Part shown: positions 45,953-55,080 of the stretch, piece by piece | How positions within the stretch are numbered: position 1 is the stretch's first letter | Layout: each line of letters opens with the position of its first letter | Assembly (NCBI RefSeq): GCF_008065135.1 | Contig: NZ_CP042914.1 | Location: 7,421,404-7,485,403, forward strand | Direction of reading: 5' to 3' | DNA: 64,000 nt | Source of the DNA: Roseimaritima ulvae | Lineage (GTDB): Bacteria; Planctomycetota; Planctomycetia; Pirellulales; Pirellulaceae | Made by a program: the position numbers and the translations under genes | The notes under the pieces: model-generated | The model's database searches: none | The model's input: the letters and a program-made list of their open reading frames with translations, nothing else | Told to the model about the DNA's origin: nothing

Positions 45953-46747
45953 TTAATTTTTCACCGGAGCGTCGATCAATCCCCAGTACCACAAAACCAT
46001 CACCAGCAGCCCGGCGGGGATACACCAATAGGCAAACCAATCCAAACGCCCTTGCCGACTCCAGCGAATCAGCCACCGCAGCGACACCAACCCAACCAGG
46101 AAAGCCACCACGGCTCCTGATAATAACACGCCCATGCCTTCACTACTTGGTGGGGCATCGATCAGGTCCTTTACCGCCAACACGGTCGCGCCCAGGATGG
46201 CGGGGATCGCCAACAGAAAGGAAAACGTCACGGCATCGTCGTTTTTTAATCCCAACAAGCGGCCGCCCACGATCGTCGAACCGCTGCGGCTGACCCCCGG
46301 CAAGATCGCAAAGGCTTGAAAACAACCCACCACCAGCGCTCGCCACCAACCAAAGCTCTGGTAGCTCGTGTCGCCCTTGGGCAGCCATCGTAATGTCAAT
46401 AACAGCCCGCCAGTGACCAGAAACATACAGCCCGCCAGCAGCGGCGAATGCAAGATGAACTCAAACTTCTTCTTGATCGTCAGCCCCACAATGGCGGCCG
46501 GCACCGTGCCCACCACCAACAGCGGCACCACCCGGCGATCGGCGCGCAGCAAAGCCCAAATCCGCTGCCAATAGACCACCAAAATCGACGCCAACGTGCC
46601 GGCGTGCAAAATGATCTCCAACGACGCCGATTCGTCTTTGATCTCCATCAGCGCCCCCAACACCACCAGGTGCCCGGATGAGCTGATCGGCAAAAATTCG
46701 GCGATCCCCTGCACCACCGCCAGAACCCATACGTCAATCCAAGACAT
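45953..46747 (-). CDS. uppP: Undecaprenyl-diphosphate phosphatase
   Basis: 264 residues from ATG 46747, polytopic. The two active-site signatures are intact: QGIAEFLPISSSGHLVV near the N terminus and PGVSRSGSTIVGG in the second half. The enzyme dephosphorylates undecaprenyl diphosphate to recycle the glycan carrier lipid and confers bacitracin tolerance. This matches the use of the same carrier by the WecA-like gene at 2919 in this window. First gene of a two-gene unit with the OYE-family reductase. Confidence 0.95.
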   Translation of the reverse strand: MSWIDVWVLAVVQGIAEFLPISSSGHLVVLGALMEIKDESASLEIILHAGTLASILVVYWQRIWALLRADRRVVPLLVVGTVPAAIVGLTIKKKFEFILHSPLLAGCMFLVTGGLLLTLRWLPKGDTSYQSFGWWRALVVGCFQAFAILPGVSRSGSTIVGGRLLGLKNDDAVTFSFLLAIPAILGATVLAVKDLIDAPPSSEGMGVLLSGAVVAFLVGLVSLRWLIRWSRQGRLDWFAYWCIPAGLLVMVLWYWGLIDAPVKN

Positions 46748-46794
46748 CAAAAACTATCCAAACTGTGTTGAGTCGATCATTCACCCCACGCCGG

Positions 46795-46860
46795 CCGTAG
46801 CCGAGCGTCGCCAGACTTTGGACGGCGTCGAATTCCAAACTCTGGCGAGTTCGGCTACGG
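46795..46860. repeat. Family B inverted pair
   Basis: CGTAGCCGAGCGTCGCCAGA and TCTGGCGAGTTCGGCTACGG arms in inverted orientation around a short spacer, upstream of uppP. Confidence 0.85.
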
Positions 46861-46994
46861 GAACCGTTTCCCTAGCCGCCCGCACAGGCCAAAAGCTAGT
46901 CTTTCCCCAGTGATTTCGCTACGCCACAAGCCGCAAGCCACAAAGCTCTCTAGCCGACCGCGGCGATTAACCTATACGCTACAGCCGCCCGGAG

Positions 46995-47133
46995 TTGGTT
47001 GTTGGTTGTTGGTTGTTGGTTGTTGGTTGTTGGTTGTTGGTTGTTGGTTGTTGGTTGTTGGCTGTTGGCTGTTGGCTGTTGGCTGTTGGCTGTTGGTTGG
47101 TGGTTGGTGGTTGGTGGTTGGTGGTTGGTGGTG
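46995..47133. repeat. Heptanucleotide tandem array (GTTGGTT and variants)
   Basis: About twenty consecutive 7-base units that change stepwise from GTTGGTT to GTTGGCT and then GGTGGTT while keeping the 7-base register. Confidence 0.95.
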
Positions 47134-47153
47134 GGACGGAAGGGACAAGCCGA

Positions 47154-47223
47154 CAAATCTCAAATCTCAAATCTCAAATCTCAAATCTCAAATCTCAAAT
47201 CTCAAATCTCAAATCTCAAATCT
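47154..47223. repeat. Heptanucleotide tandem array (CAAATCT)10
   Basis: Ten perfect CAAATCT units ending 12 bases before the DUF368 start. They are open in several frames, including the DUF368 frame, where they would encode ISNLKSQ heptads. Confidence 0.95.
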
Positions 47224-47235
47224 CAAGAAAATCCC

Positions 47236-48216
47236 GTGCCCGACTCGCCCCCTCCCCCTTCGCCGGTCGCCGCGACCTGGACGGCGGACATCGTGAATGT
47301 GCTCCGCGGCTACTTAATGGGTGCGGCCGATACGGTGCCCGGCGTCAGTGGCGGTACGGTCGCCTTGATCCTTGGCCACTACCAACGCCTGGTCACGGCG
47401 ATCAGCCATTTCGACTCGACGGCCCTGCACATGCTCCGCCAGCGGCAGCTCCGCGCGGCCGCGGTCCACTGCGACCTGCGGTTCCTGATCGCCCTGGGCA
47501 TCGGCGTGGCCACCGGGATCCTCACCCTGGCCAGCTTGATGCACTGGTTGCTGGACCACCGCATGCCGGAAACGCTCAGCGTTTTCTTTGGCCTGGTGCT
47601 GGCCAGTAGCATGATCGTGGCTCAACAAATCCGCCGCTGGTCAGCCGGTTCGATCACGCTCGGGCTGCTCGCCGTGGTGTCCGCCTATGCGCTGTGCAGT
47701 TTGACGCCCACAGCCACCGAACCCAGCTTGGGCTTCATTTTCCTGGCCGCCATGATCGCGATTTGCGCGATGATTTTGCCGGGTATCAGCGGCGCATTTA
47801 TTTTGCTGCTACTGGGCGTCTACCAGCCAATCACGGGGCTGATCAAAGATCTGGCTCATGGACAACTGACCACCGACGCGTTGATCAAGCTGAGCACATT
47901 CGCGTTGGGCTGCGCGCTGGGCCTGGCCCTGTTCAGCCGTCTACTGCGGTGGCTGCTGGCTCGTTACCGCGATCCCACCTTCGCCGTCCTGCTGGGATTA
48001 ATGCTCGGTTCGCTGCGCAGACTGTGGCCGCTGCAACAAGCCACCCCGGAAACGCTGGATGCCAAATTTTCGCAGCGCCAGTGGGTGCTGGTCTCGCCAG
48101 CGGATTGGCCGGGATCGCTGTGGCTGCTTCTGGGCTTGGCCCTGGCCGCCTGCGTCGGCGTATTGGTCTTCGAACAACTCGGTCGGCGGCTGAGCCAACA
48201 CGAAGAGCGCCCGTAG
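47236..48216 (+). CDS. DUF368 polytopic membrane protein
   Basis: About 326 residues from GTG 47236. The conserved start of the family (VLRGYLMGAADTVPGVSGGTVALILGHY) begins about 20 residues later, and a second copy of the motif (MIAICAMILPGISGAFILLLLGVYQPI) lies mid-protein, giving an internal pseudo-repeat with about eight helices. DUF368 proteins are related to flippases for undecaprenyl phosphate (PopT family) by published work I recall, which would fit uppP divergently upstream. The frame stays open through the heptamer arrays, so an upstream start cannot be excluded. Its TAG stop lies inside a Family B hairpin. Confidence 0.85.
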   Translation: MPDSPPPPSPVAATWTADIVNVLRGYLMGAADTVPGVSGGTVALILGHYQRLVTAISHFDSTALHMLRQRQLRAAAVHCDLRFLIALGIGVATGILTLASLMHWLLDHRMPETLSVFFGLVLASSMIVAQQIRRWSAGSITLGLLAVVSAYALCSLTPTATEPSLGFIFLAAMIAICAMILPGISGAFILLLLGVYQPITGLIKDLAHGQLTTDALIKLSTFALGCALGLALFSRLLRWLLARYRDPTFAVLLGLMLGSLRRLWPLQQATPETLDAKFSQRQWVLVSPADWPGSLWLLLGLALAACVGVLVFEQLGRRLSQHEERP

Positions 48217-48279
48217 CCGAAGTCGCCAGACTTTGGACAGCCGAGCAAACCATCCCAACTCTGGCGAGTTCGGCTACGA
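48212..48279. repeat. Family B inverted pair between convergent genes
   Basis: Left arm CGTAGCCGAAGTCGCCAGAC supplies the DUF368 stop codon; right arm CTCTGGCGAGTTCGGCTACG ends at the mntR stop. It may work as a bidirectional terminator. Confidence 0.85.
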
Positions 48280-48708
48280 TTACGGCTTTGAGGACAAGCC
48301 CTGAGCGGCGATCTGTTCGAACCGCCGCAGTGTTGAGGGGCTGACGTGGTGCTCGATGCCCTCGGCGTCGATCGCCGCGGTCCGTTCGTCGATGCCCAGC
48401 GCCAACAAGAACTGAAACACGATTTCGTGACGCTGCCGGCATTTCTTGGCCAGCCGTTTGCCCGCCGCTGTCAATGCGATCGGCTTATAGGGTTCGGTGA
48501 CCACCAGCCCCTCGGTTTGCAAGCGTTCGACGATCCGATGCACGGTGACGTTGCTGACCGAAAACCTGCCCGCCAAATCGGTGATCCGGCAAACCGCATT
48601 TTCAGCCACTATCTCGGCGATCGCTTCCACGTAGTCTTCGGCCGTCTCGGTCTGGTGGTCGGCGCGGGTCCGGCGGTGTGGTGCGGATGCTCGAATCGTC
48701 TTGGCCAC
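48280..48708 (-). CDS. mntR: Manganese-responsive transcriptional regulator (DtxR/MntR family)
   Basis: 142 residues from GTG 48708, with AGGA 7-8 bases upstream; the longer open frame upstream reads through the operator region and is rejected. N-terminal winged helix: ETAEDYVEAIAEIVAENAVCRITDLAGRFSVSNVTVHRIVERLQTEGLV. The dimerisation/metal domain has RHEIVFQFLLALGIDERTAAIDAEGIEHHVS, the segment that distinguishes MntR (DAEGIEHH) and supplies the Mn ligands. It lacks the SH3-like third domain of DtxR/IdeR. It is divergent from a metal ABC transporter with operator-like palindromes between them, so it most likely represses that operon when Mn is plentiful. Confidence 0.9.
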   Translation of the reverse strand: MAKTIRASAPHRRTRADHQTETAEDYVEAIAEIVAENAVCRITDLAGRFSVSNVTVHRIVERLQTEGLVVTEPYKPIALTAAGKRLAKKCRQRHEIVFQFLLALGIDERTAAIDAEGIEHHVSPSTLRRFEQIAAQGLSSKP

Positions 48709-48757
48709 GGGCGCTTCCTGAAGTTCACAAGGTGAGGGCGGGCGGTAGATGATACGG

Positions 48758-48786
48758 TTGACACTAAGTTTAGCAAAGGCTAAGTT
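48758..48786 (+). promoter_or_regulatory. Sigma-70-like promoter of the metal ABC operon
   Basis: TTGACA (48758-48763), 17-base spacer, TAAGTT (48781-48786), directed toward the binding-protein gene. The first operator-like palindrome overlaps the spacer and -10, a position suited to repression. Confidence 0.6.
48769..48784. promoter_or_regulatory. Operator-like palindrome 1 (probable MntR box)
   Basis: TTTAGCAAAGGCTAAG: arms TTTAGC / GCTAAG, imperfect dyad overlapping the promoter. Confidence 0.6.
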
Positions 48787-48795
48787 CGCTAAAGG

Positions 48796-48811
48796 TTTAG
48801 CATTTGCTAAA
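48796..48811. promoter_or_regulatory. Operator-like palindrome 2 (probable MntR box)
   Basis: TTTAGCATTTGCTAAA: perfect 7-base arms TTTAGCA / TGCTAAA separated by 2 bases. The geometry is like MntR/DtxR-family operators. Between the two boxes lies a further half-site GCTAAA (48788-48793). Confidence 0.65.
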
Positions 48812-48833
48812 TTTAAAACATCCAAAATCAAAC

Positions 48834-48936
48834 GTAGCCGAAGTCGCCAGACTTTGGACACGTAGCCGAAAATCCAAACTCTGGCGAGTTCGGCTACGGG
48901 AGTGCCGCAATCCAAACTCTGGCGAGTTCGGCTACC
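48834..48936. repeat. Family B triplet in the metal-transporter leader
   Basis: One forward and two reverse units (CGTAGCCGAAGTCGCC..., TCTGGCGAGTTCGGCTACGG twice) between the operators and the binding-protein start, so the 5' leader RNA would be highly structured. Confidence 0.85.
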
Positions 48937-48971
48937 AGCGTGCCAGCGACGAAAGTGCAACAGGGAAAGCG

Positions 48972-49976
48972 ATGGATCGGATGCGGAACTTTTTGGTGAT
49001 CGGGCAACAGCTGGCAATCTGGTCGGTGGCGTGGGTGGCATGCCTGGGCTGCAACGGCCCCGCCTCCCAAACCGAGGGGCCTGCGGCGGAACTGGACTAC
49101 CCGATCAAGGTCACCGCCACGGTGGGCATGGTCGCCGATATCGTGCGGCAAGTCGGTGGCGAACAGGTGGCGGTCACGCAAATCTGCGGTCCCGGTGTCG
49201 ACCCCCATCTCTACAAAGTCACTCGCGACGACGCGCAAACGCTCAGCAACGCCGACATGATCTTCTACAGCGGCCTGATGCTGGAAGGCAAAATGTCCGA
49301 CACGCTGGTCAAAATGGCTCGCCGACGCCCCGTCATCGCGGTGACCGAGGCGATCGATGAATCGGTGCTGTTGGAACCCGAAGAGATGCAGGGGCATTAC
49401 GACCCCCACGTCTGGATGGACGTCTCGGCATGGGCGCAGTGCGTCACGGCGGTGGCCGACGCGCTGGCGGAATTCGACCCCGCTCACGCCGCCGAGTACG
49501 AACAACGCGCGGCCGAGTACCGTACGCAATTGCAGGCGCTGCATCAGTACGGGCAGGAAGCCATCAGCACTATTCCCGCGGACAGCCGCGTGCTGGTCAC
49601 CTCCCACGACGCCTTTAACTACATGGGCCGCGCCTACGGACTGGACGTCCAAGGCGTGCAAGGGCTGTCGACCGAATCGGAAGCCGGCTTACAACGCGTC
49701 AATGAATTGGTCGATATGCTGGTCAAACAAGACGTGCACGCCGTGTTCATCGAAAGCAGCGTGCCACGCAAGAGCATCGATGCGTTGGTCGAAGGCGCGC
49801 AGGCTCAAGGCCACCAAGTCACCATCGGCGGCGAACTATACTCCGATGCCATGGGAAAAGCCGGCACCTACGAAGGCACCTACATCGGCATGCTGGACCA
49901 TAACATTACGACCGTCACCCGGGCCCTGGGCGGCCAAGCCCCCGCGGGAGGACTGAACGGCAAACTATCCCCATAA
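48972..49976 (+). CDS. Metal ABC transporter substrate-binding lipoprotein (TroA/MntA type)
   Basis: 334 residues from ATG 48972 with GGGAAAG just upstream; the longer frame starts inside the repeats. Lipobox VACLGC at about residues 19-24. The cluster A-I fold is clear: KVTATVGMVADIVRQVGGE, GVDPHLYKVTRDDAQTLSNADMIFY (first His ligand), GHYDPHVWMD (second His), VFIESSVPRKSIDAL (Glu region) and GTYIGMLDHN (Asp ligand). There is no His-rich acidic loop as found in ZnuA, so Mn or Fe is more likely than Zn, in line with the MntR gene next door. The stop TAA lies in a degenerate Family B repeat. Confidence 0.92.
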   Translation: MDRMRNFLVIGQQLAIWSVAWVACLGCNGPASQTEGPAAELDYPIKVTATVGMVADIVRQVGGEQVAVTQICGPGVDPHLYKVTRDDAQTLSNADMIFYSGLMLEGKMSDTLVKMARRRPVIAVTEAIDESVLLEPEEMQGHYDPHVWMDVSAWAQCVTAVADALAEFDPAHAAEYEQRAAEYRTQLQALHQYGQEAISTIPADSRVLVTSHDAFNYMGRAYGLDVQGVQGLSTESEAGLQRVNELVDMLVKQDVHAVFIESSVPRKSIDALVEGAQAQGHQVTIGGELYSDAMGKAGTYEGTYIGMLDHNITTVTRALGGQAPAGGLNGKLSP

Positions 49977-50034
49977 CCGAACTCGCCAGAGTTTGGACGA
50001 GCAGCTCCCGCTTTATCCCTTATGTAAAAACTCC

Positions 50035-50841
50035 ATGAATCCCTTGGCACACACCGAATCTGCTCCGGCAGCCGACCCGGAACAGCCCTTGTCGATTCAT
50101 GACCTGACGGTCGCTTATGACCGCAAGCCCGTCCTCTGGGACGTCGGGTTTGACGTCCCACCAGGATCCCTGGTCGGCGTCGTGGGCCCCAATGGAGCGG
50201 GCAAGAGCACGCTGCTGAAGGCCGTCATGGACCTATTGCCGCGAGCCTCGGGACGGATCGAAGTCTTCGGCCAGCCGTACCGCAAAACGCGACATCGCGT
50301 GGGCTATGTGCCGCAGCGAGAAAGCGTTGACTGGGACTTTCCCGTCGATGCCCTGGACGTGGTCACGATGGGCTTGTACCGCGACGTCGGTTGGTGCCTG
50401 CCGGTCCGCAAAAAACATCGCCGCCAAGCTCTCGAAGCGCTTGACCGGGTGGGCATCGCCGACCTCGCCTCGCGGCAGATCAGCCAGCTCTCAGGCGGCC
50501 AACAACAGCGCACCTTTTTGGCCCGGGCTCTGGTGCAAGACGCCGACTTGTACCTGATGGACGAACCCTTCGCCGCCGTCGACGCGGCCACCGAACGGGC
50601 CATCATCGACATCCTGCGAGACATGAAGCAGCACAACAAAACGTCGGTGGTGATCCATCACGACCTGCAAAGTGTGCCGGAATATTTTGACTACGTGGTG
50701 CTGTTGAACATGCGGATCGTGGCCCACGGACCGGTCTCCCAAACCTTCACGCCGGAAAACCTGCAAAAGACCTACGGCGGACGATTGACGTTGTTGGATG
50801 AAGTAGCCGAAGCGATGCGCCGCCGGGAGCGATCGCTATGA
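50035..50841 (+). CDS. Metal ABC transporter ATP-binding protein
   Basis: 268 residues from ATG 50035. Walker A VVGPNGAGKSTLLKA, Q-loop YVPQRESVDWDFPV, signature LSGGQQQRTFLARAL, Walker B DLYLMDEPFAAVD and switch His VIHHDLQS are all intact. The VPQRxxVDWxFP stretch is typical of Mn/Zn (MntB/ZnuC/TroB) ATPases. The stop overlaps the first permease start (ATGA), so translation is coupled. Confidence 0.95.
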   Translation: MNPLAHTESAPAADPEQPLSIHDLTVAYDRKPVLWDVGFDVPPGSLVGVVGPNGAGKSTLLKAVMDLLPRASGRIEVFGQPYRKTRHRVGYVPQRESVDWDFPVDALDVVTMGLYRDVGWCLPVRKKHRRQALEALDRVGIADLASRQISQLSGGQQQRTFLARALVQDADLYLMDEPFAAVDAATERAIIDILRDMKQHNKTSVVIHHDLQSVPEYFDYVVLLNMRIVAHGPVSQTFTPENLQKTYGGRLTLLDEVAEAMRRRERSL

Positions 50842-52457
50842 CGACGCTCGCCCCCGTAGCTACGCTCGCCAGAGCGTGGACAGCCGCGCCGAACCACCTT
50901 CTGGCGAAGGTAGCTACGATGCGCGGTCGCGGCGTCAAACTGCTCGCCTGCTTCCTCTTACTCTGCCTTTTCGCCAGCACCGCGTCGGCCCAACCGCCGA
51001 GCGCCCCCCAACAGCCTTCTTCCCAGGAATCGATCGCCGACCGCAGCATTTCCTGGCCCACTTGGCCTCGAGTCCGACGCGTGCTGTTGCTGCAGGACTA
51101 CAACACTCGCGTGGTCATCATCGGTACCACGCTGCTGGGCTGTGCGGCCGGCATGGTGGGCAGCTTTACCCTGCTCCGCAAACGCGCCTTGATGGGCGAC
51201 GCGCTCAGCCACGCCACGCTGCCCGGCATCGGTCTGGCATTTATCTTGGCAACGCACTACGGACAGGATGGTAAATCGATGCCGATCCTGTTGCTCGGCG
51301 CAACTATCAGTGGGTTGATCGGCGTGGGCACCATCCTGGCCATCGGGCATTTAACGCGGCTAAAAGAAGACACGGCGATCGGGGCGGTGCTGAGCGTGTT
51401 TTTTGGCGCCGGCGTAGCGATGCTCAGCGTCGTGCAACAGATGAGCCAAGGCAACGCGGCGGGATTGGAATCGTTTGTTTACGGCAAGACGGCTTCGATG
51501 GGCATGGCGGACATGCGGTTGATCGTAGCCGCGGCGGTGATCTGCATCTTCGGCTGCACACTGTTGTTCAAAGAATTCAAACTGCTGTGCTTCGACGATG
51601 GTTTCGCCGGCTCACGAGGCTTTCCGGTCAAGCGATTAGACATGACGCTGATGGGTCTGGTCGTGGTCGCGACGATCGTGGGCCTGCAAGCGGTGGGCCT
51701 GATCCTGATGATCGCCCTGTTGATCATCCCCGCCGCCGCCGCCCGCTTCTGGACGGAAAAGCTGGGTCAGATGTTTCTCATTTCCGGCTCCTTGGGCGCG
51801 ATCAGCGGCATGCTGGGCGCCGGCACCAGCGCGTTGTTTTCCAAACTGCCATCTGGCGCCATGATCGTGTTGGTTTGCACCGCCATGTTTGGTTTCAGCA
51901 TGATCTTTGGCTCGGCTCGCGGGGTCTTGATCCGCGCCCTCAAACGCCGACGGCTGAACCGATCCGTCGACCGGCAACACCTGCTGAGAGCTTTATACGA
52001 AATGCGGGAAACCGATCCGCAAGCTCCCGCTCCGCCCGCCCGCGAATCGGACTCCGGCAGCTACCGCAGAGCCGCTCGCGGGACCGTACCGGTCGCCGAC
52101 TTGCTGCAAGTCCGCAGCTGGTCGCGAGCGCGATTGATGCGGGAGATCCGACGCTCTCAAGCCGATGAATTGGTCGAATGCAGCGACAATAAAGTTCAAC
52201 TGACCAAACGCGGAGCCGTCGAAGCGCAGCGTCTGACTCGCGAACATCGGCTCTGGGAATTGTTCCTGATCACCCATGCCGACGTCGCTCCCAGTCAAGT
52301 GGACCGCGACGCCGACGCCATCGAACATGTGTTGGAACCGGAGATCGTGGCGGAACTGGAAGCTTTGCTCAGCCGCGAACAGCCCACGATTCCGGCCAGC
52401 CCGCACTCGCTGGCCGCCCACCCCGCTGCGGCTCCTCCGGCAGGCGAGGAGAGCTAG
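50838..52457 (+). CDS. Metal ABC transporter permease fused to a C-terminal DtxR-like domain (permease 1)
   Basis: 539 residues from ATG 50838 (GGGAG 8 bases upstream, overlapping the ATPase stop). An alternative ATG at 50919 starts directly at a signal-like segment (KLLACFLLLCLFASTASAQ) and also has GAAGG upstream. The ABC-3 permease domain spans about residues 90-390 with GSFTLLRKRALMGDALSHATLPGI, FGAGVAMLSVVQQM and VGLQAVGLILMIALLIIPAAAARFW. From about residue 415 a DtxR-like module follows: ADLLQVRSWSRARLMREI...LTKRGAVEAQRLTREHRLWELFL and AIEHVLEPEIV. One metal-ligand position (usual VH) reads VD. A Family B hairpin is inside the N-terminal coding region. Confidence 0.9.
   Translation: MTTLAPVATLARAWTAAPNHLLAKVATMRGRGVKLLACFLLLCLFASTASAQPPSAPQQPSSQESIADRSISWPTWPRVRRVLLLQDYNTRVVIIGTTLLGCAAGMVGSFTLLRKRALMGDALSHATLPGIGLAFILATHYGQDGKSMPILLLGATISGLIGVGTILAIGHLTRLKEDTAIGAVLSVFFGAGVAMLSVVQQMSQGNAAGLESFVYGKTASMGMADMRLIVAAAVICIFGCTLLFKEFKLLCFDDGFAGSRGFPVKRLDMTLMGLVVVATIVGLQAVGLILMIALLIIPAAAARFWTEKLGQMFLISGSLGAISGMLGAGTSALFSKLPSGAMIVLVCTAMFGFSMIFGSARGVLIRALKRRRLNRSVDRQHLLRALYEMRETDPQAPAPPARESDSGSYRRAARGTVPVADLLQVRSWSRARLMREIRRSQADELVECSDNKVQLTKRGAVEAQRLTREHRLWELFLITHADVAPSQVDRDADAIEHVLEPEIVAELEALLSREQPTIPASPHSLAAHPAAAPPAGEES
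50855..50919. repeat. Family B inverted pair inside the 5' end of permease 1
   Basis: CGTAGCTACGCTCGCCAGAG and CTTCTGGCGAAGGTAGCTAC arms; translated in frame if the 50838 start is used, otherwise it forms the leader of the 50919 start. Confidence 0.85.
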
Positions 52458-52459
52458 AC

Positions 52460-53842
52460 ATGTACTTGTGGGAACACTGGAGCTGGCAGATCGATGGCTG
52501 GATCGTGGTCGCGGGCATGCTGTGCGCCGTGGCGGCGTCATTGCTGGGCAATTTTCTGGTCCTGCGGCGGATGAGTATGCTGGGCGACGCGATCACCCAC
52601 GCCATCCTGCCGGGACTGGCGGTGGCCTTTTTCGTCAGCTCCAGCCGCAGCAGCTTGCCGATGTTTTTGGGCGCCGTGATCGTGGGGATTTTGACGGCGC
52701 TGTTTACCGAATGGATCCGTAAATTCGGCAACGTCGATGAAGGCGCGTCGATGGGGGTGGTCTTTACTTCCCTGTTCGCCTTGGGCCTGGTGATGATCGT
52801 GCAAGCTGCCGACCACGTCGACCTGGACGCCGGTTGCGTGCTGTACGGTGCAATCGAAATGACTTGGCTGGACATGGTCTCCATCGGCGGCTGGGAAGTT
52901 CCGCGAGCGGTTGCCGTACTGACGGTGGTGACGGTCCTGAACGCATTGTTCGTGACGCTGTTCTTCAAAGAGCTGAAATTGACGTCCTTCGACCCCGCGT
53001 TGGCGACCACTACGGGGTTTAACGCCAGCTTGATGCATTACTTGCTGATGGTCCTGGTTGCCGTCACGGCGGTGGCCAGCTTTGAAAGCGTGGGCAGCAT
53101 CCTGGTGGTGGCGATGTTTATCGTGCCGCCGGCAACCGCTTATATGTTGACCGACCGCCTCCGCACAATGATCGGCTTAAGCGCCGCGTTGGCTGCCCTG
53201 TCGGCCCTGCTGGGACATGTTGGGGCGGTCGAAGTGCCACGTTGGTTTGGCTACCGCAGCACCACCACGGCGGGCATGATGGCCGTCGCTGCGGGAGTCT
53301 TGTTGATGCTGGCGATCCTGTTCAGCCCTCGCCATGGGATGCTGGTCAAATTCATCCGCCGCCGCTTGCTGGCCTGGAAAATCCTGGCCGATGACATTGT
53401 CGCCCTGCTGTATCGCTTGCAGGAACGAGGGGATGCCGCACAGACCGACCCGCAATCTCTCCGCGCCCTGCTGCTTGCCGACCAATTCACCTTCCGCCTG
53501 GTTCTCGGCTGGTTGCGACAGCAAAAATACGTGGAACAAGCGGAGTCGCAGATGCGACTGACGCGAAGGGGCAAGCACGTGGCCCGACAAGTTGTTCGTT
53601 CGCACCGTTTGTGGGAACAGTACCTGACCTCCCACGCCAATGTGGATGTGGGACGCGTCCACGACAAAGCCGAACGGCTGGAACATTTTACCGACCGCAA
53701 CCTCCGCGACGAACTGGACGCCGCGACCGACGCCCCGGCGATCGACCCGCACGGTGCCCCGATCCCGATCGAAGACCACGAGGCGAGTACTCAAAGCGAT
53801 TCCCAAACGCAAAGCGACAGGCAAGCTCAGAGCGATTCATAG
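52460..53842 (+). CDS. Metal ABC transporter permease fused to a C-terminal DtxR-like domain (permease 2)
   Basis: 460 residues from ATG 52460, with GAGGAG upstream and 2 bases after the previous stop. The ABC-3 permease domain spans about residues 15-290: LLGNFLVLRRMSMLGDAITHAILPGLAVAF, ASMGVVFTSLFALGLVMI and FESVGSILVVAMFIVPPATAYML. Residues about 320-440 form a DtxR/MntR-like module (QFTFRLVLGWLRQQKYVEQAESQMRLTRRGKHVARQVVRSHRLWEQYL) with the full metal-ligand signature VHDKAERLEHF. The two permeases would form the channel heterodimer, each with a cytoplasmic sensor-like tail. Confidence 0.92.
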   Translation: MYLWEHWSWQIDGWIVVAGMLCAVAASLLGNFLVLRRMSMLGDAITHAILPGLAVAFFVSSSRSSLPMFLGAVIVGILTALFTEWIRKFGNVDEGASMGVVFTSLFALGLVMIVQAADHVDLDAGCVLYGAIEMTWLDMVSIGGWEVPRAVAVLTVVTVLNALFVTLFFKELKLTSFDPALATTTGFNASLMHYLLMVLVAVTAVASFESVGSILVVAMFIVPPATAYMLTDRLRTMIGLSAALAALSALLGHVGAVEVPRWFGYRSTTTAGMMAVAAGVLLMLAILFSPRHGMLVKFIRRRLLAWKILADDIVALLYRLQERGDAAQTDPQSLRALLLADQFTFRLVLGWLRQQKYVEQAESQMRLTRRGKHVARQVVRSHRLWEQYLTSHANVDVGRVHDKAERLEHFTDRNLRDELDAATDAPAIDPHGAPIPIEDHEASTQSDSQTQSDRQAQSDS

Positions 53843-54669: not shown

Positions 54670-55080
54670 ATTCTCCTTTTGTGGGGGTGATGATGATTCG
54701 CCGCGAATTCATTGTAGTGCAGTTTCGTAGCATGGGCCCCCGGCCCGTGACTGCTGGCAGCAGCGATGAGGCAGCAGCGATGAGGCAGCACCGATACGCA
54801 TTACAAGGCAAAAGGACCTAAGGGACTAAAAGGACCCAAGCGACAGCGTGGTTTTCCCTCACTCCTCACTCCTCACTCCTCACTCCTCACTCCTCACTCC
54901 TCACTCCTCACTCCTCACTCTCCCACTCTCCCACTCTCCCACTCTCCCACTCTCCCACTCTCCCACTCTCCCACTCTCCCACTCTCCTCACTCTCCCACG
55001 GGCCGGGGGCCCATGCTACTTCGGAGCGGATATAATCGTCGCTATTCCTCTTCCCTACCCTGCCCTGCTTGAGACCTACC
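54670..55080. repeat. Tandem-repeat block flanked by inverted Family A units
   Basis: A forward Family A unit at 54726-54749 and a reverse unit at 54997-55020 bracket an array of CACTCCT heptamers (about 54858-54919), which shifts to TCCCACTC octamers (about 54920-54985). A GATGAGGCAGCA duplication lies at about 54765-54790. The organisation is the same as at 274-470. No gene seen. Confidence 0.9.

Follow-up and report, generated by a model that had tools for sequence, protein, structure and literature searches.

DtxR/MntR-like domains fused to both permeases of a probable manganese importer in Roseimaritima ulvae, a putative transporter-level metal sensor

Metal uptake by bacterial ATP-binding cassette (ABC) importers of the MntABC type is usually explained by transcriptional repressors. 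In the window analyzed here, a stretch of 64,000 nt from Roseimaritima ulvae (contig NZ_CP042914.1, positions 7,421,404 to 7,485,403), an operon for such an importer is located at 48280-53842, and both of its permeases end in a module resembling the repressors of the DtxR/MntR family. What does a repressor-like module do at the end of a permease, when a separate MntR is encoded next to it? We consider it reasonably probable that the operon encodes an MntABC-type importer for Mn(II), possibly Fe(II), in which the repurposed DtxR/MntR module of each permease serves as a metal-responsive regulatory domain. On this reading, intracellular metal may be sensed by the transporter itself.

Domain architecture and distribution of the fused permeases

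The operon comprises a divergent mntR gene, a gene for a ZnuA-type lipoprotein, a gene for an ABC ATPase and two genes for ABC-3 permeases:

48280-48735, minus strand: stand-alone MntR, taken as 151 aa (the open reading frame extends to 49041), matched by NF008273, PF01325 and PF02742
48972-49976, plus strand: ZnuA-type metal-binding lipoprotein (substrate-binding protein, SBP), PF01297 at E 1.2e-79; start inferred by eye, open reading frame from 48804
50035-50841, plus strand: ABC ATPase, PF00005 at E 1.5e-30; start inferred by eye, open reading frame from 49993
50838-52457, plus strand: permease 1 (P1), ABC-3 core with DtxR-like tail, supported by PF00950, PF02742, an AlphaFold2 model and a match to PsaBC
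51957-52457, plus strand: P1 tail with an altered ligand set; part matched by PF02742 at 52203-52373
52460-53842, plus strand: permease 2 (P2), ABC-3 core with DtxR-like tail, supported by an AlphaFold2 model and matches to PsaBC and DR2539
53339-53842, plus strand: P2 tail, two-domain DtxR fold in the model; part matched by PF02742 at 53561-53767

P1 and P2 match the ABC-3 model PF00950 (E 2e-59 and 3.2e-43, respectively) and are the sole two proteins found by this profile in the host genome, a single contig of 8.2 Mb. The original prediction placed a DtxR/MntR-like module at the end of both permeases and a stand-alone MntR beside the operon, and both assignments were confirmed. PF02742 (Fe_dep_repr_C) matches the two tails above its curated cut-off (P1, E 2.1e-13; P2, E 3.6e-20), in agreement with the structural models, and the stand-alone protein reaches 165.8 bits with NF008273, the NCBIfam model of manganese MntR (cut-off 153), and lies above the cut-offs of both PF01325 and PF02742. 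Of the two profiles proposed for the tails, only PF02742 was recovered, while the DNA-binding model PF01325 matches neither tail at E values up to 1. PF02742 has four matches in the host genome, namely the two tails and two stand-alone proteins; the Fur family has two. The second stand-alone PF02742 protein (L196:3300-3800) is MntR-like by sequence, with a TTAGCn4GCTAA palindrome nearby. With a ZnuA-type SBP, an ABC ATPase, ABC-3 permeases and an adjoining MntR, the gene set is that of an MntABC/PsaABC importer. The operon probably serves manganese import; we infer Mn(II) as the substrate solely from MntR and the box-like sites described below.

The AlphaFold2 model of P2, based on a 50-row alignment, has a mean predicted local distance difference test score (pLDDT) of 92.2. 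According to Foldseek, its core resembles the manganese importer PsaBC (PDB 7kyp/7kyo; template modelling (TM) score to target up to 0.82). The tail was matched over 131 columns to the Mn-dependent repressor DR2539 (8pw0; TM 0.86, root-mean-square deviation (rmsd) 1.8 Å, 36% identity). From the latter match it follows that the model contains the winged helix as well as the metal/dimer domain, and the P2 tail is thus predicted to be a complete two-domain DtxR fold although PF01325 fails; a truncated tail without the winged helix-turn-helix (wHTH) was ruled out on the same grounds. The P1 model is less certain (mean pLDDT 83.1, winged-helix blocks 91-97). Its core matches PsaBC with a TM score of 0.87, and the match of its tail to DtxR is weak (1bi2: E 9e-3, TM 0.68, rmsd 4.0). 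The first ligand lies on an uninterrupted helix which, in the two models, continues from the membrane end as DtxR helix 1 (P2 294-322, P1 363-392). P1 and P2 share the permease fold with PsaBC, but the matched PsaBC chains of 258-290 residues are too short for a tail of this type. With DR2539, MntR, SloR and DtxR the fold of the P2 tail and the metal ligands are shared, whereas the P1 and P2 tails are attached to a membrane protein and their recognition helix is not conserved.

That the fusion occurs in other planctomycetes, previously a guess, is now documented at several levels. All 58 genomes of the order searched contain a PF02742 match, 42 of them in an open frame of at least 400 aa (a hand count by frame length only), and 36 of these 42 contain a DtxR-family frame of shorter length as well (hand count). 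The gene order in complete loci of order relatives is SBP-ATPase-P1-P2. By profile, both permeases were tailed in 26 of the 40 loci taken, a tail-less P1 stood beside a tailed P2 in four, and only a tailed P2-class permease or only a P1-class gene was found in eight and two loci, respectively, some of them at contig ends. A wider contig scan with the pattern VR[SA]HRLWEx[YFW] returned at least 598 stretches (596 of 598 confirmed, 80 kept). Among the matches listed, the kept stretches are mostly from Planctomycetota, including Rhodopirellula baltica, Gimesia, Rubripirellula and Phycisphaerae, the closest named relatives of the P2 tail are planctomycetes, and we noted a Kiritimatiellae metagenome-assembled genome (MAG) in which both permeases are tailed, a MAG from Bdellovibrionales and three records from Bacteroidota whose locus shows a single permease. 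In a survey of the phylum, the tail profile matched 87 of 148 genomes, stand-alone proteins included; in the phylum of the Kiritimatiellae genome it matched 82 of 144, several of which have, at survey level, two long frames side by side. A chance motif as the source of the tails is ruled out by the PF02742 E-values, by the models and by the recurrence of the same two-tailed operon in many genomes.

In a tree, P1 and P2 each cluster with a different permease of a Deinococcus operon. The tree is compatible with one fusion before the P1/P2 split as well as with two fusions and does not settle between them, and the single-permease rows form no resolved group. On a plasmid of Deinococcus peraridilitoris (L189:4492-5965), the P2 counterpart ends, as judged by eye, in a wHTH-like stretch without a metal domain and overlaps a separate gene for a DtxR-like protein of 131 aa; the end of this permease could be a relic or a precursor of the fusion.

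Metal ligands, junction and recognition helix

In P2 the putative metal ligands are D312, H382, E386, H401, E405, E408 and H409, followed by DPHG at 429-432. The residues of P1 at the same positions are H381, H470, E474, D489, D493, E496 and H497. According to the alignments, the two sets differ at three positions and not, as originally proposed, at one. For a broader comparison, tails were collected without the duplicate loci of the host genome (L001-L006, L157), identical tails and tails shorter than 110 residues, and were reduced at 85% identity from 95 to 90 for P1 and from 127 to 112 for P2; one further P1 tail shorter than 130 residues was left out, resulting in n = 89. The P2-class set includes 27 rows from loci without a visible P1-class gene, among them single-permease systems and cut contigs. 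Positions are given in mixed MntR/DtxR numbering. The equivalents of D8, H77, E83, H98, E102 and H103 are D, H, E, H, E and H in 112 of 112 P2-class tails each, as is the Asp of the DPHG motif; at the E99/C102 position, 90 of them have E and 13 have H. P2-class tails have the metal ligand set of DtxR/MntR repressors. Among the P1 tails, the position of D8 is H in 63, N in 12 and D in six, that of H77 is H in 82 and that of E83 is E in 81; the position of H98 is D in 83 and H in five, that of E99/C102 is D in 74 and E in eight, and E102 and H103 are retained in 80 and 78 tails. The ligand set of P1 is altered, yet in a conserved manner, and is mostly kept across the P1 tails.

In a natural P1-P2 fusion of 802 aa (L076:2080-4488), the P1 tail is lost and the P2 tail is kept. 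In five single-permease systems (L059-L062, L073), the tails are longer because the DPHG motif is followed by an additional C-terminal domain, and by their sequence they appear to be of the IdeR-like three-domain type (domains named by eye); the P1 and P2 tails of the host have no third domain.

In all 112 P2-class and all 89 P1 tails, the first ligand follows the conserved Gly behind the last membrane helix at a spacing of exactly 19 residues. Many different distances were found between the first ligand and the LT motif after the wing; the length of the wHTH segment varies. A fixed helical register combined with a variable wHTH would fit mechanical coupling better than a cleavable linker. The same 19-residue junction is found with the fusion throughout the phylum, which rules out a recent or local fusion event.

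The recognition helix behaves differently from the metal pocket. Its mean pairwise identity is 0.25 in P1 and 0.24 in P2, while the metal regions reach 0.56 and 0.53; in the stand-alone proteins the values for helix and metal region are 0.66 and 0.62 (MntR, n = 15) and 0.64 and 0.70 (IdeR, n = 33). At 16 matched loci, the helix identity was 0.68 for MntR versus 0.38 for P1 and 0.31 for P2, with MntR exceeding P1, and likewise P2, in 118 of 120 pairs; the corresponding metal regions showed 0.63, 0.67 and 0.56, the P2 window being shortened. In 11 genomes picked by hand, IdeR had a helix identity of 0.82 versus 0.28 for P1 and 0.32 for P2 and was higher in 55 of 55 and 54 of 55 pairs, respectively. 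These matched comparisons do not include L083, which duplicates L042. Here the metal window of P2 was shortened too, and a repeat with the full window gave 0.33 for the P2 helix and 0.64 for its metal region. Finally, 21 genomes had both loci, and in 20 of them (G041, in which the permeases are one fused gene, was left out) the helix identity was 0.79 for IdeR versus 0.26 for P2, with IdeR higher in 189 of 190 pairs, and the full metal regions showed 0.76 and 0.56.

At the positions which face the DNA in DtxR, the P2 helix is rich in the hydrophobic residues Leu and Trp. The P1 helix is rich in arginine. The mean charge at positions 37-50 is +2.9 in P1, +2.3 in P2, +2.1 in stand-alone MntR and +0.2 in IdeR. 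Since the P1 and P2 helices are positively charged, they may still make unspecific contacts to nucleic acid or lipid. A conserved recognition helix and a PF01325 match, both typical for DtxR/MntR repressors, are lacking in the P1 and P2 tails. With a drifted recognition helix and a retained metal pocket, the tails have apparently lost DNA reading; it is unlikely that they repress in a sequence-specific manner, and regulation by the tails through specific DNA sites is disfavored.

Operators and transcriptional control

Two palindromes, which resemble the MntR box of Escherichia coli, are located between mntR and the SBP gene, and sites of this class recur upstream of such operons:

48769-48784, no strand assigned: MntR-box-like palindrome TTTAGCAAAGGCTAAG, one mismatch
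48796-48811, no strand assigned: MntR-box-like palindrome TTTAGCATTTGCTAAA, exact

Of 82 operons, 31 carry the core TAGCn4GCTA in the 700 bp that precede them, compared with a single hit in the other 778 kb of these loci. In 29 of 86 operons (L038-L076 and others), the SBP gene is preceded by a second palindrome, TTTTGn6CAAAA. It was found in 29 of the 53 upstream regions without an MntR box versus one of 53 control stretches, and none of the 86 operons has both palindromes (MntR box, 33; TTTTGn6CAAAA, 29). Its reader may be IdeR, because 10 of the 11 genomes of the first IdeR-matched test carry it; the P1 and P2 helices of these genomes differ widely. In the 30 loci of stand-alone regulators (L007-L036, about 3 kb each) neither TTTTGn6CAAAA nor the MntR palindrome was found, and therefore we only infer IdeR as the reader. 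The separate operator classes and the small number of adjoining stand-alone regulators suggest that transcriptional control changes hands between lineages, while the tails stay.

Proposed action of the tails, alternatives and surroundings of the operon

Transporter-level feedback, already put forward in the original prediction, fits best to the invariant ligands, the fixed-length helical junction, the drifted recognition helices and the separate operators, and to this extent the proposal gained support; the tails would thus be a transporter-level metal sensor, probably acting by feedback inhibition. In the proposed mechanism, the chain passes from the last membrane helix into DtxR helix 1, with the first ligand, via one unbroken helix. 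Cytoplasmic metal would bind mainly to the canonical P2 site and pull helix 1 against the metal/dimer domain. It would also pair the modules of P1 and P2 as a pseudo-symmetric dimer at the cytoplasmic side and stop the transport cycle. Transcription would be handled apart by stand-alone MntR or, in other lineages, probably by IdeR. The regulatory domain of MetNI and ModBC has a different fold and is located on the ATPase. The likeness is limited to the proposed action, in which substrate at the cytoplasmic side restrains the transporter, and we do not claim membership in these systems. Both are trans-inhibited importers according to a review.

Only tentatively do we go further and propose a hetero-dimeric metal brake, typical for a widespread class of Mn/Fe importers, in which the paired P1 and P2 tails have abandoned DNA recognition and the former DNA-binding helix is in contact with the ATPase or the membrane. 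If true, the ABC-3 importer family would have a feedback domain for metal, and most fusions of a permease with a repressor might be such brakes, with the cleaved chlamydial form as the exception. A repressor fold with a metal switch, without DNA reading and held at a fixed length on both permeases, would offer a direct route from sensing to transport. It would also be a way, open to test, of understanding permease-DtxR fusions which does not involve the release of a repressor.

Several observations weigh against feedback by the tails. In some lineages P1 lacks the ligands or the whole tail while P2 is intact, and thus a two-site dimer is not essential. Residues 481-500 of P1, including D489-H497, have a pLDDT of 55-58 in the model. 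The invariance of HRLWE was in part chosen by the search pattern, the remaining ligand positions being unselected. The helix identity is also low (0.25) in the five three-domain single-permease tails, which we list as weak or contrary evidence, and the helix charge fails to separate P1 and P2 from DNA binders. On the side of transcription, a stand-alone DtxR-family gene stands beside the operon at just 16 of 89 loci, 24 of the 86 operons have neither palindrome, and a shorter DtxR-family frame was not seen in six of the 42 fused order genomes (completeness 90-99%). In a two-mismatch search of the window alone, two box matches were reached in 25 of 100 shuffles, which is not significant; the weight of these sites comes from their position and recurrence. 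Finally, YtgCR, the sole experimentally studied relative we found, is reported to work as a cleaved repressor.

The tails could instead accept, buffer or chaperone metal where it leaves the importer on the cytoplasmic side, or aid assembly, without any feedback. Conservation of the ligands but not of the DNA-recognition helix agrees with this, as does the P1 tail without ligands in some lineages. However, the full two-domain DtxR fold and the coupling helix of fixed length would point to conformational signaling instead of mere binding, and we regard this explanation as rather unlikely.

Fusions of this kind, for which the original prediction named no precedent, are already known. In Chlamydia trachomatis, the ytgABCD operon encodes YtgCR, a TroC-like permease with a C-terminal DtxR-like module, and YtgR is reported to be cleaved from YtgC, to bind the ytg promoter and to act as a repressor; a review mentions relatives in 11 phyla. 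The operon of R. ulvae shares with this system the ABC-3 permease continuing into a DtxR-family module in one frame, within an SBP-ATPase-permease-permease operon. By that description, one permease is fused in Chlamydia, whereas in R. ulvae both are, with different ligand sets, a junction of fixed length, a drifted recognition helix and a separate MntR. Our analysis adds that both permeases are fused and differ in their ligand sets, that the junction is fixed in length, and that there is evidence against sequence-specific repression; among the matches listed in the open-licence PubMed Central literature, we recognized no planctomycete double fusion. A tail which is cleaved off to repress its own operon in a metal-dependent manner would have the chlamydial precedent, the complete wHTH fold in the P2 model, and the lineages without a stand-alone regulator frame or operons without either palindrome in its favor. 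It seems improbable to us, since the P1 and P2 helices drift among genomes of the same operator class while those of stand-alone IdeR and MntR are conserved, the 19-residue helical junction is invariant rather than a variable linker, and the window itself holds a stand-alone MntR with box-like sites.

Regulation by uncleaved permeases which bind DNA or keep the operon near the membrane, an alternative named originally, would suit the arginine-rich P1 helix and the MntR-like positive charge of both helices, but is very improbable in view of the missing conserved recognition sequence in P1 and P2, even among genomes with the same palindrome.

In the surroundings of the operon, a dispersed repeat of 28-36 nt (AAACTCTGGCGAGTTCGGCTACG and its inverse) was found at 46832-46867, 48251-48286, 48871-48944, 49972-49999 and 50855-50882. 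One diverged copy lies inside the annotated N-terminus of permease 1, and for this reason its real start may be approximately 27 codons later, as judged by eye. Tandem repeats of CAAATCT and of CCTCACT/CACTCTCC adjoin the operon at 47154-47230 and 54857-54995. The neighboring membrane proteins at 45953-46750 and 46999-48216 look by eye like UppP and DUF368.

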